IMG/VR virus record: IMGVR_UViG_3300048837_000984
Coordinates: 1-64,000 of that record
Reading direction: 5' to 3' (one strand)
Length of the DNA: 64,000 nucleotides
Source of the DNA: a virus
Shown here: positions 58,603 through 64,000 of the stretch, one piece after another
Layout: the number at the start of each line of letters is the position of its first letter
Position numbering within the stretch: position 1 is the first letter of the stretch
Program-made: the position numbers and the translations under genes
The notes under the pieces: generated by a model
Databases searched by the model: none
Seen by the model: the letters and a program-made list of their open reading frames with translations, nothing else
What the model was told of the DNA's origin: nothing

Positions 58603-58809
58603 TTAGGGCGGAAAGTTGGCCCAGAAGTGACTGCACCGCAAATGCGCTGAAGACCAAAGACACAGCCGAGCGCTCTCTCGATATCGCCGCCACATACCTC
58701 GGACAGAGGTGGTGGCGCCAAAGCGACGATTCAACCAAGCCCGGTGCAGATAGTAATACTCGGTGTCGACGCCGTTGGTAGGCCAACGTCTTACAATCGC
58801 GGCCGGCAT
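58603..58809 (-). CDS. Small array-family protein (outlying member), 68 aa
   Basis: ATG after GAGG, four bases into ATGAATG at the stop of the 118-aa gene. MPAAIVRRWP start, then YYYLHRAWLNRRFG with the RAWL motif shared by array members at 61417 and 61876. Rich in Arg, Trp and Tyr. Two unrelated genes separate it from the main array. Its stop lies in the conserved P2 region. The frame starting at 58813 is an alternative but lacks the family pattern. Confidence 0.6.
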   Translation of the reverse strand: MPAAIVRRWPTNGVDTEYYYLHRAWLNRRFGATTSVRGMWRRYRESARLCLWSSAHLRCSHFWANFPP

Positions 58810-59166
58810 TCATTTATCCTCAACGAAACCGAACTTGGACATAAACAGCCGCAATTCCGGAGACAGGTCGCAAATCAGGTCTAGTAGCGCGAAAGGAGGC
58901 AGTATCCGCTCGGCCTTCTGTTGGGCAGATAGCTGCGGATCGCCAGCAACGGCTAACTCGGCAAGGACTAGCTTGCCAACCTCAGAGTCGTAAGGATATC
59001 GCCAGACAAAGCAATCACCGCTCTGCGTTGGCTGGAAGTCTACAACGATGTGGTTGGTCGCTTTCTCGTCTTGGACAAATAAATAGGTCGCGTCTACGTG
59101 AGAAGTAGACAGTCTTGCTGGGGCGATACTCCGCCACCGCTGTAAATGCTTAGACTGGATCGGCAC
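58810..59166 (-). CDS. Unknown 118-aa protein inside the small-gene array
   Basis: GTG start with GGAGG 6 bases upstream. Beta strands (ATYLFVQDEKATNHIVVDFQ, DCFVWRYPY) then helices (AQQKAERILPPFALLDLICD). Balanced composition, unlike the array family. Lies 44 bases after the 108-aa gene. Function unknown. Confidence 0.6.
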   Translation of the reverse strand: MPIQSKHLQRWRSIAPARLSTSHVDATYLFVQDEKATNHIVVDFQPTQSGDCFVWRYPYDSEVGKLVLAELAVAGDPQLSAQQKAERILPPFALLDLICDLSPELRLFMSKFGFVEDK

Positions 59167-59210
59167 CAGAATCCTCCGAGAACTTGGGGCCAGACTTTTC
59201 TGTTCTCACT

Positions 59211-59537
59211 TCAAGTCCGCCACTGGTATTTCTTCTGCAGTTCCTCGGCCTTGTCAGGGTCAGCGATTGTTGCTCTGCGGGCCTGCAACTCTTCGACCGT
59301 CCCACCCAACTGCTCCCAGATAAAGTTGAGGCAGCAGATGACAGCGTCGCTGGTGAGGCTACAGAAGACACAGTCATCAATCAAGCCGAGAAGCGGATCC
59401 TTGACTTCGTCGTTAGCTTTACCAAGAAACTCTCTGAGACGATCCTTTACCTGGGGGTCAACTTCCCGGTCGTTCCCACCGCAGATCAGATTGAACAGTT
59501 GGTCACGAGATTCAATGGAGAAAACCTCATCGCTCAT
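59211..59537 (-). CDS. Unknown acidic 108-aa protein inside the small-gene array
   Basis: ATG overlapping the previous stop (ATGA), GAGG upstream. Helical and acidic (VDPQVKDRLREFLGKANDEV, AVICCLNFIWEQLGGTVEEL). It does not belong to the A-x-L family. Function unknown. Confidence 0.6.
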   Translation of the reverse strand: MSDEVFSIESRDQLFNLICGGNDREVDPQVKDRLREFLGKANDEVKDPLLGLIDDCVFCSLTSDAVICCLNFIWEQLGGTVEELQARRATIADPDKAEELQKKYQWRT

Positions 59538-59767
59538 CTGTAGTACCTCTGAAGTAACCTGGAGCCACGAGGACGACCAGCAAGGATAGGCCCCTGGCAG
59601 AAAAGGTAGCCATGTCGAAGCCAGGCATGCGAGTTTCCCATTTGTCTTGCCCGGTTAAGATAGGCCGCGAGGCCCGCAGAATACCGTCTATAGACAAAAA
59701 CAGAACCGTTGCGGAGTAAGTGTCGATAATGTCCTACGCCATGAAGAAGTGCAGCTACGCACAGCAT
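59534..59767 (-). CDS. Array family member 19, 77 aa
   Basis: ATG, GAGG 8 bases upstream, TGA overlapping the next ATG. Start MLCVAALL fits M-x-C-x-A-x-L; later A-x-L triplets include AAYL and HAWL. Basic and Arg/Tyr-rich, ending RLLQRYYR. The last array gene before the 108-aa gene. Function unknown, as for all members. Confidence 0.65.
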   Translation of the reverse strand: MLCVAALLHGVGHYRHLLRNGSVFVYRRYSAGLAAYLNRARQMGNSHAWLRHGYLFCQGPILAGRPRGSRLLQRYYR

Positions 59768-59771
59768 TGAA

Positions 59772-59990
59772 TCAACCTCGCTGATGTAGGTGAGACCGAC
59801 TACGCCAGAGTAGCCGTGCTTCTTGCCCGATAAGCTGGTGCGGCGACCGGATCTTGCAGCTCGACAGACGGGAAAGAGTAGCGCGCCGATGCCACGGCCA
59901 TGCGCCACCTCCAGAAGCTAGACAGGCAGCAGCCAGGCAGAAAACAAATGCTGTTGGCTCACCGTGATAAAGGTTTGCGGCATAGCTCAA
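59772..59990 (-). CDS. Array family member 18, 72 aa
   Basis: A TTG start inside TTGA at the stop of member 17; purine-rich GGAAGGAAAG upstream. MSYAANL start, then CLAAACLASGG, ATLSRL and EARLL. Basic tail (RSRSHLHQRG). A-x-L spacing is close to that of the others. Confidence 0.62.
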   Translation of the reverse strand: MSYAANLYHGEPTAFVFCLAAACLASGGGAWPWHRRATLSRLSSCKIRSPHQLIGQEARLLWRSRSHLHQRG

Positions 59991-60241
59991 TCTTCTTTCC
60001 TTCCTGGTGAAAGCCAGGCCTGAGAAAGGCCTTGGTGCGTGGCGACACGATTGTACCCATGACCTTGGCGGAGTCCACTATCCGAAGCAATGAACCGCAA
60101 ACCCGAAAACAGTCGCAAGTTAGCTGCGCATTGCAGCACCTGAATTCCGTAGACCTCACGCGGTAAGACTGTGTTGGCATGCCAGCGCGACCAGCCGTAC
60201 CTAAAGTTGGTATAACTTGTAAGTGCCGCTCGACAGTTCAA
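59987..60241 (-). CDS. Array family member 17, 84 aa
   Basis: A TTG start in TTGA, with AAAGGAG 6 bases upstream; a slightly longer ATG frame would put the ribosome site inside the gene. MNCRAAL matches the family consensus exactly. C-terminus AWLSPGRKED, where the GR codons are part of the next gene's ribosome site. Confidence 0.65.
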   Translation of the reverse strand: MNCRAALTSYTNFRYGWSRWHANTVLPREVYGIQVLQCAANLRLFSGLRFIASDSGLRQGHGYNRVATHQGLSQAWLSPGRKED

Positions 60242-60477
60242 TTCCATCTCCTTTGACAAAGCTTCGCGCAGTCACACGACATGGCCGCGGACGCATACAC
60301 TGAGGACCTTTTGCCAGTCCGAAGCCAGCAACACTGGTCGTAAGTCTTGTCGCACGCAGGCGTGAAAAAGGCCTGCGATAGCCAGCCCCACCACGAACGG
60401 GACGGCAGTAGGCGGGCTGACGTAGACTTGAAATATACTTCGGATTGATGTCGACACAGGGACGCCCGACTGAGCAT
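60238..60477 (-). CDS. Array family member 16, 79 aa
   Basis: ATG overlapping the previous stop (TAATG), GGGAGA upstream. MLSRASL start; TSARLLPS and ASAAM later; ends CAKLCQRRWN with six Cys in total. Basic and Trp/Cys-rich. Confidence 0.65.
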   Translation of the reverse strand: MLSRASLCRHQSEVYFKSTSARLLPSRSWWGWLSQAFFTPACDKTYDQCCWLRTGKRSSVYASAAMSCDCAKLCQRRWN

Positions 60478-60686
60478 TATCTTTCTCCCGGACTAAGACC
60501 AGCTCGCCCGGTAGGACCGAAAGCCTGACTAAAGGCGTTCGCGTCTTCGCCCGCTCCGAGCCACCCGTAGGGGTAAAAGTTGCCGACCATCGCTCTGATA
60601 AGGAAATAAGGAAGACCATTCCGAATTGTCGCGAAAGAGAACCAGTTGTAGCCGGGACAGTGGTGCAATATCGCACTCCAGCTCAT
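60477..60686 (-). CDS. Array family member 15, 69 aa
   Basis: ATG in ATGA with AGGGAG upstream. MSWSAIL start, aromatic centre (YNWFSFATIRNGLPYFLI), C-terminus GRAGLSPGER as in members 14 and 17. Confidence 0.65.
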   Translation of the reverse strand: MSWSAILHHCPGYNWFSFATIRNGLPYFLIRAMVGNFYPYGWLGAGEDANAFSQAFGPTGRAGLSPGER

Positions 60687-60943
60687 GCGTATCTCCCTGG
60701 TGAAAGTAAAGCCCGGCGACTTTGCATGTAGGCACCGGCCATAGGTATTGCAAGTTTACCGCGCATGCGGAGCCGACTACCTGAAATGGAAAACCGTACG
60801 TACGGGTGCTGAAGAATAACGGCTTCCTGTGGAAACCACGAAGTGGACTTAGTGACGTAGACCTTGGCCGTCGCTAGATCTAGACGAATTCGCCCAGGTT
60901 CCCTCGGACAATGCCATAAGGCCGCTGTGCTCCTTGGCCTCAT
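60683..60943 (-). CDS. Array family member 14, 86 aa
   Basis: ATG in ATGA with GGGAGG upstream. MRPRSTAAL start is shifted by two residues relative to the consensus. Ends SRRALLSPGRYA, very close to members 13 and 15. The longest member. Confidence 0.62.
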   Translation of the reverse strand: MRPRSTAALWHCPREPGRIRLDLATAKVYVTKSTSWFPQEAVILQHPYVRFSISGSRLRMRGKLAIPMAGAYMQSRRALLSPGRYA

Positions 60944-61191
60944 CTTTTCCTCCCGGGTCGGAGAAGAGCTCGTGAAGTGCGAAACATGGCCGCGCCCGAT
61001 GACGAATCTCCCGACCACAGCCAGGGTAGCTGGCCGACTCGGATACCTGTCGGTTCGTAACACAAGTAAGCCTGGAAACATTCGACATCAAAGAAGAGAT
61101 CGATTGGTCCGGTCATTACAGCTGCATAACCGCAACCAAAATACCAGTTATCGGCATCTCTCGACATTCGCAACGTAGCTGAGGAATACAA
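60940..61191 (-). CDS. Array family member 13, 83 aa
   Basis: A TTG start with GGGAGG 5 bases upstream. MYSSATL start; FQAYLCYEP in the middle; ends SRALLRPGRKR. Acidic residues are somewhat more frequent than in other members. Confidence 0.62.
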   Translation of the reverse strand: MYSSATLRMSRDADNWYFGCGYAAVMTGPIDLFFDVECFQAYLCYEPTGIRVGQLPWLWSGDSSSGAAMFRTSRALLRPGRKR

Positions 61192-61192
61192 C

Positions 61193-61411
61193 TTACACCT
61201 CCCACCGTTGCTGACTCAGTGCGGCTTGACATTTCCCGAGGCGGAAAGCACCCGCCCACGCCGTTGGACCTTGGCCTAGAAGACTTCGGCAGAACCGGTG
61301 AAGAACGGCACCTGGTTGCCAACGGAACCGGGTGCTAGGAATCATTGCCGCGAATCTGACGTGATAGACGTATAGGCTGTAACAGTAGCGGATAGCTGCT
61401 CGACATCTCAT
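61193..61411 (-). CDS. Array family member 12, 72 aa
   Basis: ATG four codons after the member-11 stop region. MRCRAAI matches the consensus; RFAAMI at 19-24 aligns with the R-F-x-A-x-L block of members 6 and 11; ends CQAALSQQRWEV. Confidence 0.65.
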   Translation of the reverse strand: MRCRAAIRYCYSLYVYHVRFAAMIPSTRFRWQPGAVLHRFCRSLLGQGPTAWAGAFRLGKCQAALSQQRWEV

Positions 61412-61416
61412 TTCGT

Positions 61417-61635
61417 TCAGTCCTGACCAAGATAGGCGCTGATGTTCCAACCGAGCCAGGCACGGTTGGGTACGCGGCTGAAATACTCAGCGCCACCAAA
61501 CAAGATTGCATCAGACAGGCCTTGAAGCGACGGACGAGCTCGCGGTGGATGTCTACCCTGGCGCAGACTCGCACGAAACCGCGAGCAATAGTAAGAGCGA
61601 CCTGAATGAACTCTCAAGAAAGCACGGTCATTCAC
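61417..61635 (-). CDS. Array family member 11, 72 aa
   Basis: A GTG start in GTGA with GGAGG 8 bases upstream. MNDRAFL start, then RFRASLRQG, SDAIL, NRAWLGW and SAYLGQD: A-x-L at 5-7, 22-24, 43-45, 59-61 and 67-69. The clearest repeat pattern of the family. Confidence 0.65.
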   Translation of the reverse strand: MNDRAFLRVHSGRSYYCSRFRASLRQGRHPPRARPSLQGLSDAILFGGAEYFSRVPNRAWLGWNISAYLGQD

Positions 61636-61874
61636 GCAAACCACCTCCAAGGACCCAGGGTCGCATCGCTTCGCCCACAAAGACTTGCCACCAAAAAGAT
61701 CGAAACGACTCGGCCAGGATCTTTTGCGTGTAGCAAGCGAGCACCGCCAAATGACCCAGCCGTACAGGCTCTGGCGAATAGCGCCAAGCGACCGGACCCG
61801 GCGATGGTCGCATTGTAGGTACAAAGGTGCCATGCCGTGCGGTTCCGACAACAGAGAATAGCTCTACACGGCAT
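61632..61874 (-). CDS. Array family member 10, 80 aa
   Basis: ATG with GGGAG upstream. MPCRAIL start, exact consensus; later GARLL and DATLGPW. High Cys/Arg/Ala. Confidence 0.65.
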   Translation of the reverse strand: MPCRAILCCRNRTAWHLCTYNATIAGSGRLALFARACTAGSFGGARLLHAKDPGRVVSIFLVASLCGRSDATLGPWRWFA

Positions 61875-61875
61875 A

Positions 61876-62100
61876 TCACGGTCTCCCAGCTGAAAGCCAA
61901 GCACCACTAACCAGGCTCAGGTAGGCTTGAGGTTCATCCCAGTCGACATGCGGAAGCCCGGCCCGGCTGTTCTCTGCCCAACCCAACCAGGCCCGGCAGC
62001 ACCAGAGTTGGCCAGTCGTAAACCCCAGTACAGCCGTATACCGAGTGTGACCGTTCCGTGAGGTAGTTGTAGGGTAGTGGATCTTTGCGTCGCACGACAA
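61876..62100 (-). CDS. Array family member 9, 74 aa
   Basis: A TTG start one base after the TAG of member 8, with GAGGAGG upstream. MSCDAKI start; RYTAVLGF and CRAWLGW match members 6 and 11; ends GAWLSAGRP. Confidence 0.65.
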   Translation of the reverse strand: MSCDAKIHYPTTTSRNGHTRYTAVLGFTTGQLWCCRAWLGWAENSRAGLPHVDWDEPQAYLSLVSGAWLSAGRP

Positions 62101-62101
62101 G

Positions 62102-62347
62102 CTAGTACTCCTCCTCGTGTTGGAACAGACCGGGCTTAAGGACCGCTCGGTCAAGTGTAGAAAGTGGCGCAGAGTCGTAACCATGCCCGCCGTGGGTGGC
62201 ACTGGCGGTGAGATGCCCGTTGAGTCGGGCTGGTATCCCCCATTGCCATCTCCAGGTAGGACCAGACGCAGGTTCAGTCAGGCAGGCCCACGAGAACGGA
62301 TAGTACGTCCCGAAGAGGGAACCAGATAGACTCGCTTTACAGTACAT
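62102..62347 (-). CDS. Array family member 8, 81 aa
   Basis: ATG overlapping member 7 by 11 bases. MYCKASL start; YYPFSWACLTEP is shared with member 4 (YAFSWACLT); ends DRAVLKPGLFQHEEEY. Confidence 0.65.
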   Translation of the reverse strand: MYCKASLSGSLFGTYYPFSWACLTEPASGPTWRWQWGIPARLNGHLTASATHGGHGYDSAPLSTLDRAVLKPGLFQHEEEY

Positions 62348-62588
62348 CTGAGTCTTCGTCTCCTGGCGGGAACTGGTGAAGACAGGCACCGAGCCTGGCG
62401 TCTAGAGAAGCGCCCGTATTCTGAAAGTCCGTAGGAAAGAGGATAGCCCCTCTGTCAGCAAAGTACCTGGCCGCAAGTGATGCCGAGGTGCCGCAGAACC
62501 CGCAACCGCACGTGTTCATCGCCGCTCGGTCACGGGTCTGTGGGTAGTCATCAAGACTGCGAAATGTTATACCAGCTGTGCTGTTCAT
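62337..62588 (-). CDS. Array family member 7, 83 aa
   Basis: ATG in ATGA with GAGG upstream. MNSTAGI start; SASLAARY, GAILFP, GASLDARLGACL: two A-x-L eight residues apart. More acidic C-terminus (PPGDEDSDVL). Confidence 0.65.
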   Translation of the reverse strand: MNSTAGITFRSLDDYPQTRDRAAMNTCGCGFCGTSASLAARYFADRGAILFPTDFQNTGASLDARLGACLHQFPPGDEDSDVL

Positions 62589-62800
62589 TGGTGCCTCAGA
62601 ATAGCGCCATACCTGCCTGAAAGGTACGGCCGATCAGTGATTGCGAGCGAAGCAGAACAGGAAAGCCCGCGGACTCGACCGAAGGTTAACCACGCTTGAC
62701 AACCCCAGTACAAGCCTCGTACAAGACCAAGCACTGCGGTGAACCGAGTACGGTAGTAACAGCGTGCTCGTTGGTAGTTAAGCGAAGCTCGGTTGTTCAT
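62585..62800 (-). CDS. Array family member 6, 71 aa
   Basis: ATG with GAGG upstream, after 10 bases from the member-5 stop. MNNRASL start; YYRTRFTAVLGL, CQAWLTFG, SASL and GAILRHQ. A-x-L at 5, 22, 36, 50 and 66. Confidence 0.65.
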   Translation of the reverse strand: MNNRASLNYQRARCYYRTRFTAVLGLVRGLYWGCQAWLTFGRVRGLSCSASLAITDRPYLSGRYGAILRHQ

Positions 62801-62810
62801 CTTCAATACC

Positions 62811-63014
62811 TCATTGATGTCGAAGGATAGCCCAACAATTGTACAATGCAACCGCACCGGAATAGCGGGCTAGAATCGCATTCGCTTTATCGCGTAGAAC
62901 CGCCTGGTGATGGTAACTCGCCGGACGGCTGCCCACCATCAAATAGGCGCTTACAGCTGAGACGTATATACTTGTTTGCGGAAAAAAGACAAAAAGGTTT
63001 GCTCGGCTTCCCAT
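62811..63014 (-). CDS. Array family member 5, 67 aa
   Basis: ATG three bases after the member-4 stop; weak ribosome site, so translation is probably coupled. MGSRANL start; VSAYLMV, QAVLRD, NAILAR; ends CWAILRHQ, identical in its last five residues to member 6. Confidence 0.62.
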   Translation of the reverse strand: MGSRANLFVFFPQTSIYVSAVSAYLMVGSRPASYHHQAVLRDKANAILARYSGAVALYNCWAILRHQ

Positions 63015-63017
63015 TGG

Positions 63018-63233
63018 TCACCAGTGGTAGAGGATAGCTCCGACATCGCAAGAACCCAGACGCGCATTTTTGTTGTATCGGTACTGATATCCAAGAAGGT
63101 ACCCGCCACACCTGTCACTAAGAAACGGAGTGACGCCGTATCTGTCTCCAGCCGAGTACGTCAGACAAGCCCAGGAAAACGCATAGAATGGGTTGTAGAA
63201 TCGATAACAAGTCAGACCTGCTCGGCAACTCAT
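63018..63233 (-). CDS. Array family member 4, 71 aa
   Basis: ATG in ATGA. MSCRAGL start, exact consensus; FSWACLTY as in member 8; ends VGAILYHW. Tyr-rich. Confidence 0.65.
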   Translation of the reverse strand: MSCRAGLTCYRFYNPFYAFSWACLTYSAGDRYGVTPFLSDRCGGYLLGYQYRYNKNARLGSCDVGAILYHW

Positions 63234-63460
63234 TCGCCATCTCCGTGCCTGAGAAAAGTTCGGTGTAACCGAAACAGAGCCGCGCCACCGCAGCAAGAAC
63301 CAGCATAGGCACCGGAACGCTTGTGCGTAGTATTCGGTCTAAGACCGGCTCGGGTCCCACAACAACCGCAGTTACAACTCGCACTGAGAGCCGCTCGTCT
63401 TCGAAACCGTTCGGCGCCGTTGCGGGCCGTGACAACCAGCGTCGCGGAACAGCTAATCAT
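63230..63460 (-). CDS. Array family member 3, 76 aa
   Basis: ATG with AGGAG upstream. MISCSATL start is one residue out of register; RRAALSAS, TRAGLRP, GAALFRL and RTFLRHG follow. Cys/Arg-rich. Confidence 0.62.
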   Translation of the reverse strand: MISCSATLVVTARNGAERFRRRAALSASCNCGCCGTRAGLRPNTTHKRSGAYAGSCCGGAALFRLHRTFLRHGDGE

Positions 63461-63471
63461 CGTTTCTCCTG

Positions 63472-63693
63472 TCAGACGTTCGAGAAAGGCCCACCAGGTA
63501 TTTGCCACCGGAACGGACCGGTCTTGAGTGTACATCGACAATGCTGGTCAAGGACTGCGTTGGCATATCTGCGGTAGTGTGCGAACGCTCGCCTGTCAAG
63601 GATACACAGCGCTGACCCATCGAGATAGGCCTTGGCGGGAAACCCGAAGAAAACTGGGTTACGTGGACTGGTTATGATAGCCGCTGTAAACAA
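63472..63693 (-). CDS. Array family member 2, 73 aa
   Basis: A TTG start with AGGAG 7 bases upstream, immediately after the previous TAG. MFTAAII start; AKAYLDG, ANAVLDQ, RCTLKTG. C-terminus Pro/Gly-rich. Confidence 0.6.
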   Translation of the reverse strand: MFTAAIITSPRNPVFFGFPAKAYLDGSALCILDRRAFAHYRRYANAVLDQHCRCTLKTGPFRWQIPGGPFSNV

Positions 63694-63703
63694 GAAGCGT
63701 CTC

Positions 63704-63907
63704 CTAGTGTTCAAGGTCTGCAACCGACCGGTTGCGAATTAACGCAGCGGAACTTTGTGAATAGTAATTGCCTGGATACAGAGCACACCGGTTGCTCCAC
63801 CCAAGGACCGCAGAAGCCAACTTCCGGTCAAGAAAAGCTCGAGCACTCACCCGTAAACGAAAGATACGCCAAGTGATTAAAACGTTTCCATGGATAGCGC
63901 GAAACAC
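63704..63907 (-). CDS. Array family member 1, 67 aa
   Basis: A GTG start with AAGGAG 6 bases upstream; longer frames exist but skip this site. MFRAIHG start; ARAFLD, ASAVLG, SAALIR follow. Less regular than later members. Confidence 0.58.
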   Translation of the reverse strand: MFRAIHGNVLITWRIFRLRVSARAFLDRKLASAVLGWSNRCALYPGNYYSQSSAALIRNRSVADLEH

Positions 63908-63929
63908 AGGTATCTCCTTTATCACGATC

Positions 63930-64000
63930 TCAAAACCACGGGAAAAGCTCAGCGCCTTCGAGTAGGACGTCTAGCGACCATATCTCTGCGTGACACAGCC
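63930..64000 (-). CDS. Array family member, partial at window edge
   Basis: The last 22 codons of a leftward gene entering from the right: residues include HAEI and GAELFPWF, in line with the family's A-x-L pattern, then TGA. It shows that the array continues beyond the window. Confidence 0.5.
   Translation of the reverse strand, partial: LCHAEIWSLDVLLEGAELFPWF

Follow-up and report, generated by a model that had tools for sequence, protein, structure and literature searches.

Tandem arrays of about 70 very small, diverged paralogous genes in a 194-kb phage record

The internal head proteins of phage T4 are small and basic, have a conserved N-terminus and vary from phage to phage. The proteins described here, encoded by IMG/VR virus record IMGVR_UViG_3300048837_000984, resemble these and the ejection proteins of SPN3US/phiKZ-like phages in all of these respects; however, those proteins are few per phage and carry a dedicated targeting peptide, whereas here there are about 70 paralogs with a motif, A-x-L, that recurs throughout the protein (PMC5694885, PMC9026906). 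The window analysed was bases 1–64,000 (64,000 nucleotides), the first third of this 193,694 bp record of an uncultured phage. Array I consisted of 62 minus-strand open reading frames (ORFs) of 47–96 codons (mean 67) between 59,534 bp and 72,426 bp, a 12.9 kb section that extends beyond the window edge (64,000 bp) in the full record. Array II, which lies outside the window (102,590 bp–105,486 bp, minus strand), is a smaller set of about nine members with ordinary genes interspersed. Together the arrays hold about 70 paralogs and occupy approximately 15 kb, which is about 8% of the record. We are aware of no phage in which a single family of tiny proteins, without known homologs and in about 70 diverged copies, takes up such a share of a 194-kb genome.

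The choline-/glucan-binding 20-residue repeats (PF01473) are, like the array proteins, aromatic-rich with a beta-hairpin-like repeat near 20 residues, but to our knowledge that family lacks the A-x-L core. Pentapeptide repeat proteins (PF00805; PMC8145042) share with the array proteins an Ala at i-2 and a Leu at i that are presumed to face inward, repeats of short beta-strands and turns, and a 20-residue superperiod; the array proteins differ in being basic, aromatic-rich and mostly 50–86 amino acids (aa) long, and in their lattice of 4, 8 and 12 rather than 5 residues. Neither PF00805 nor PF01473 matched anywhere in the record at E ≤ 1. Choline-binding repeats were ruled out on this ground, and the pentapeptide repeat family also because its five-residue period was not found. 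The analogy to pentapeptide repeats drawn in an earlier note on this DNA, made from the sequence alone, therefore fails.

The array genes form one protein-coding family

Array I was compared with 100 dinucleotide shuffles of its region, using gene starts from a simple chain model in which individual boundaries may shift. The gene-chain score was 585 against 180 ± 30 for the shuffles and the coding coverage 0.98 against 0.67. Gene overlaps of −4 or −1 numbered 25 (2.5 in the shuffles), Shine-Dalgarno (SD) sites preceded 81% of the genes (15% in the shuffles) and the purine-rich ribosome-binding signal peaked at −12 to −7. The A-x-[LI] motif was found 261 times against 35 ± 6, and an N-terminal M-x(0-4)-A-x-[LI] was present in 52 of the 62 genes against 2.4. 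When residues were shuffled within the array proteins, 232 A-x-L were observed against 54 expected (z 24); the within-protein comparison gave only 131 against 107 in the ordinary genes of the same phage. About 60 consecutive frames have been kept open, although the composition predicts 3.6% of codons as stops. Chance ORFs were ruled out by the shuffles on the basis of SD sites, overlaps, A-x-[LI] and the N-terminal motif. Both the coding signal and family membership are well supported.

With the 43 upper genes as its training set, a family grammar scored the 19 lower genes at a mean of +4.8 bits, against −16.1 ± 5.2 for shuffles, and 74% of these held-out genes lay above the shuffles' 99th percentile. 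The grammar was also run over 3,179 ORFs from this phage (those of array I among them) and from its relatives, with array II left out of training as a blind test. The three best-scoring ORFs outside array I were array II members and the fourth, at 9.3 bits, was the 68-aa outlier at 58,603 bp–58,809 bp. The shared repeat grammar thus generalises to genes outside the training set, and arrays I and II are a single family. A few of the 62 array I ORFs, for example those at 70,753 bp–71,043 bp and 68,685 bp–68,828 bp, fitted the family poorly.

BLASTP between members revealed pairs with up to 62% identity over 21 residues and 42–44% over the full length, full-length pairs being mostly 20–40% identical. 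One duplication spanned a block of two genes, as 63,230 bp–63,460 bp and 63,018 bp–63,233 bp paired with 62,337 bp–62,588 bp and 62,102 bp–62,347 bp respectively. Neighbouring array genes were on average more alike than distant ones (permutation p 0.023), and therefore the array has grown by tandem and block duplication. Together with the held-out grammar validation and the clear paralog pairs, the block duplication upholds the proposal in the earlier note of a repeatedly duplicated, diversifying family. Tandem duplication and copy-number change as a route of adaptation are also described for poxvirus gene arrays; the poxvirus copies are described as recent and nearly identical, unlike the diverged copies of this bacterial-virus operon (PMC6115191).

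The A-x-L lattice and the predicted fold

The spacing between A-x-[LI] motifs peaked at 8, 12, 16–17, 20, 28 and 40 residues, spacings of 4–7 were avoided and lag 5 was depleted (2 against 16.6 expected). In a free-phase repeat model, period 4 gained 712 nats against 453, 530, 587 and 591 for periods 3, 5, 6 and 7; period 8 reached 805 nats, but with twice the parameters of period 4. A 20-residue superperiod results from two A-x-L spaced 8 and then 12 residues apart. A model with four types of tetrad described the proteins as a = x-[NR]-[CS]-[RG], d = A-[WIYVF]-L-x, c = [QHP]-G-[RP]-[FY] and b = filler, in which 96% of the a tetrads had d as the next tetrad and d-c closed many genes.

The lattice is maintained in the protein and not in the DNA. 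The Ala codons of the motif (GCA/GCC/GCG/GCT 15/36/22/28%) were used as in the whole array (16/33/24/27%), and the motif Leu was encoded by both CTN and TTR codons at a ratio near that of the whole array. As these synonymous codons occur at background rates, selection on the A-x-L motif acts at the protein level. At the position between A and L, the residues I, W, V, Y and F were over-represented, and their codons share no common base pattern. Agreement at the three codon positions of 15 paralog pairs was 0.53/0.59/0.33, lowest at the third position, although these pairs were picked by protein similarity and are biased in that direction. A DNA-level motif was ruled out by the synonymous variation at the motif codons and by spacings that favour the reading frame.

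Beta propensity was raised at the middle residue of A-x-L (z 7.3) and turn propensity on each side. Measured against the expectation from base composition, the array proteins were rich in W, Y, N and F and poor in P, V, E and T. The proteins were mostly basic, with a mean net charge of about +6 and 57 of the 62 net positive. Because a beta-former sits between A and L and the flanks are turn-forming, the residue preferences suggest that the array proteins consist of short beta-strands and tight turns. A beta-solenoid family in which the fold is kept at pairwise identities down to 6% is known from the Brevundimonas Knotted Solenoid proteins; these are bacterial, 100–160 aa long and built of three-sided coils nearest to pentapeptide repeats, and the portion of that report drawn on here describes no A-x-L lattice (PMC13123833).

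Gene content of the locus and searches for relatives

The earlier note described a tandem array of about 20 genes at 58,603 bp–64,000 bp. The genes themselves are real: 19 complete minus-strand ORFs of 67–86 codons (63,907 bp down to 59,534 bp), one member truncated at the window edge and an outlier were all present. The outlier, however, is split from the run by two ordinary genes, and the array is larger than was thought, since it runs to 72,426 bp and a second array lies elsewhere in the record. All of the genes lie on the minus strand. From the window edge downwards, the cut member (63,930 bp–64,000 bp; 74 codons at 63,930 bp–64,154 bp in the full record) was followed by one of 67 aa with a GTG start (63,704 bp–63,907 bp) and one of 73 aa with a TTG start (63,472 bp–63,693 bp), both with the SD site AGGAG. 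The next two, of 76 aa (MISCSATL; 63,230 bp–63,460 bp) and 71 aa (MSCRAGL; 63,018 bp–63,233 bp), are the upper half of the block duplication. After a 67-aa member (MGSRANL; 62,811 bp–63,014 bp) and a 71-aa member (MNNRASL; 62,585 bp–62,800 bp) came the lower half, of 83 aa (MNSTAGI; 62,337 bp–62,588 bp) and 81 aa (MYCKASL; 62,102 bp–62,347 bp). A 74-aa member with a TTG start (61,876 bp–62,100 bp) formed a paralog pair with MNNRASL and was succeeded by members of 80 aa (MPCRAIL; 61,632 bp–61,874 bp), 72 aa with a GTG start (61,417 bp–61,635 bp), 72 aa (MRCRAAI; 61,193 bp–61,411 bp), 83 aa with a TTG start (60,940 bp–61,191 bp), 86 aa (60,683 bp–60,943 bp), 69 aa (MSWSAIL; 60,477 bp–60,686 bp) and 79 aa (MLSRASL; 60,238 bp–60,477 bp). 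Two members with TTG starts, of 84 aa (MNCRAAL; 59,987 bp–60,241 bp) and 72 aa (59,772 bp–59,990 bp), preceded the final one of the continuous run, of 77 aa (59,534 bp–59,767 bp). The N-terminal starts that had been quoted (MNCRAAL, MSCRAGL, MPCRAIL and MYCKASL) were found as stated, as were the shared fragments FSWACLT (63,018 bp–63,233 bp and 62,102 bp–62,347 bp), RAWLGW (61,876 bp–62,100 bp and 61,417 bp–61,635 bp) and AILRHQ (62,811 bp–63,014 bp and 62,585 bp–62,800 bp).

Downstream, array I is bordered by an ordinary non-family gene of 108 aa (59,211 bp–59,537 bp), which is coupled to the array by a −4 overlap and had no Pfam match, another of 118 aa (58,810 bp–59,166 bp), the outlier (58,603 bp–58,809 bp) and a gene for a 247-aa membrane-anchored protein. 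The leader and start of this last gene (58,513 bp–58,609 bp, minus strand) were 82% identical to 20,246 bp–20,337 bp, the leader of a paralogous gene for a 220-aa membrane-anchored protein; both proteins begin MSTF[FL]KI. The leaders contain TTTCCGGGTCAATAG, and one copy carries the palindrome GTGATATCAC. The shared leader is possibly a promoter of the phage polymerase, and the leader at 58,513 bp–58,609 bp is probably the regulatory boundary of the array operon. Upstream, an ordinary 80-aa gene is followed by the gene for a protein of 303 aa that bears DnaJ-like CxxCxGxG motifs (72,732 bp–73,643 bp), one of two such zinc-motif proteins upstream of the array in the full record (the other at 77,479 bp–78,231 bp, minus strand), both below the Pfam cut-off. 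A role of the Arg-flanked A-[aromatic]-L segments as chaperone bait, linked to these DnaJ-type genes, would be speculative.

Among the other genes in the window, all on the minus strand, were a fused beta/beta-prime RNA polymerase (RNAP) of 2,510 aa (40,485 bp–48,017 bp), approximately 30% identical to those of Salmonella phage Arash and Vibrio phage D69 and 52–56% to those of three uncultured relatives, and a 1,057-aa protein with 2H phosphoesterase (2H-SAK) and SET domains (54,386 bp–57,559 bp) that is partly conserved in relatives. In the full record, also on the minus strand, a protein of three helix-turn-helix domains (94,553 bp–95,308 bp) and a methionine-aminopeptidase-like M24 metallopeptidase (98,541 bp–99,293 bp) are encoded between the arrays, and a ribonucleotide reductase gene contains an intein carrying a LAGLIDADG domain (159,521 bp–162,835 bp). 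The major capsid protein was 28–29% related to those of phage Arash and Vibrio phages D69, D148 and D181 and up to 76% identical to those of uncultured relatives; a capsid-protein scan of genome contigs revealed two distant relatives.

Searches of the array proteins against Pfam, PHROGs, NCBIfam, PADLOC and the PDB returned no significant match, only scattered single matches at chance level; the NCBIfam and PADLOC scans covered 19 members. With 1,042 residues from the array proteins as query, tblastn found no match in 50,697 phage records, and Rfam no RNA family in 57,500 bp–64,000 bp. A 23-column A-x-L octad profile, built from the array itself and with loose E-values, matched at 32 places in array I and nowhere else in the record, so that array II was not picked up. 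Neither phage Arash nor any of 82 related viral contigs contained a cluster of matches to this profile, although several contigs are fragmentary and array II was missed, so small arrays could escape it. A DNA octad pattern occurred at background counts only in 50 relatives, a scan for runs of tiny ORFs in stretches of three RNAP relatives found no sense-strand array, scans with the two array-flanking genes found no relatives, and literature searches of incomplete coverage found no comparable phage arrays. The large array is lineage-specific within the searched collections, and the view that no described phage family resembles it holds for the databases and cultured phages searched.

Possible roles of the array products

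The best explanation of the whole, to which we assign a probability of about 40%, is a coupled operon of one new family of tiny, mostly basic, host-directed proteins that duplicates and diverges. The array is a single long, translationally coupled operon (about 62 genes, plus about nine in array II) of true protein-coding genes. The family unit is [x-x-(C/S)-(R/G)]-[A-(beta-former)-L-x]-[(Q/H/P)-G-(R/P)-aromatic], and this unit probably folds into short beta-strands linked by tight turns. The set grows by tandem and small-block duplication, after which the copies diverge fast while the A-x-L scaffold, the start position and the ribosome-binding sites are kept. On residue preferences the fold is likely to be a beta-rich mini-repeat; with less assurance, the products might be accessory and host-directed, the constant scaffold showing variable residues to different host targets. 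A host-directed role would agree with the small size and basic charge of the proteins, the number of paralogs, their rapid divergence and the lack of such arrays in relatives. That no array was found in the 82 related contigs or in phage Arash is as expected of an accessory set with fast turnover.

Several observations weigh against this explanation. AlphaFold on two alignments gave poor models (predicted local distance difference test scores of 52.6 and 47.7), one of which, at low confidence, had strands at roughly 8-residue steps in part, and a Foldseek search with these models found no match. The suggestion in the earlier note of a small repeat-fold protein thus stands at the level of the sequence, in the regular lattice, the central beta-former and its turn-forming flanks, but not at the level of structure. 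The 19 members scanned had no PADLOC match, annotation of the flanking genes recognised no counter-defence function, and a set of more than 60 diverged members could be weakly selected. Base composition was near flat across the three codon positions of the array genes, and base composition accounted for their synonymous usage slightly better than the codon usage of the phage did; their codon usage is not phage-adapted. The lack of a translation signal and of codon-position bias had been named in the earlier note as grounds for rejecting its proposal, and the bias is indeed weak. We read this as a sign of young or fast-evolving genes because all remaining coding signals are strong.

The same flat composition and unadapted codons, with the strong divergence and the absence from all relatives examined, are what the main rival would lead one to expect. 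This is a runaway, weakly selected tandem duplication, in which a small gene, its ends well suited to recombination, multiplies and decays and the products do little. We consider it doubtful, as some 60 consecutive frames remain open against the expected stop codons, nearly every copy retains its SD site, start and A-x-L lattice while the rest has diverged, and a second array exists. It is unlikely, and ranks after runaway duplication, that the proteins are virion cargo, loaded into the phage head and delivered along with the DNA in the manner of T4 internal or phiKZ-like ejection proteins, with the N-terminal motif as targeting signal. Small size, positive charge, the conserved N-terminal motif and virion genes adjoining array I agree with this, but the motif recurs all along the protein, no dedicated targeting peptide or (by eye) prohead protease site, at which T4-type internal head proteins are cleaved, was recognised, and array II lies away from virion genes. 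We think it still less probable that many interchangeable beta-repeat subunits assemble into a matrix, scaffold or amyloid-like compartment. A constant scaffold with variable residues, the beta and turn preferences and the aromatic enrichment would suit such a material; 60–70 different subunits have no obvious need there, and no low-complexity assembly signature was seen.

A quadrilateral beta-helix of the pentapeptide-repeat kind, such as a DNA mimic, is very improbable. The spaced Ala and Leu and a superperiod equal to one pentapeptide coil recall it, but lag 5 is depleted, period 5 fits worse than period 4, PF00805 is absent and the net charge is basic, not acidic. Scarcely any weight is given to non-coding sequence, or a DNA- or RNA-level repeat, mistaken for genes: the weak codon-position bias is set against motif codons that vary synonymously, the SD and coupling signals and the lack of an Rfam match in the window part searched. 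Equally slight are the chances that a diversity-generating retroelement or other dedicated mutagenesis drives the strong differences between copies, since no near-identical template copy was found and no reverse transcriptase domain (RVT_1, PF00078) in the record, which may be incomplete; retroelement diversification was rejected on the latter ground.

Returning to the coupled operon of host-directed proteins, a more specific and distinctly tentative form of it is a natural binder library. One mini beta-repeat scaffold in about 70 copies, each with its own surface residues directed to a separate host or competitor protein (such as defence proteins), would be co-made from coupled operons and turned over fast in the phage lineage. 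As the array members have little more in common than a spaced motif, genes of this kind slip through annotation pipelines and family databases. If the array genes are translated and their products host-directed, they would represent a repertoire strategy in which a bacterial virus duplicates a minimal scaffold, and could supply very small natural scaffolds that tolerate sequence change.

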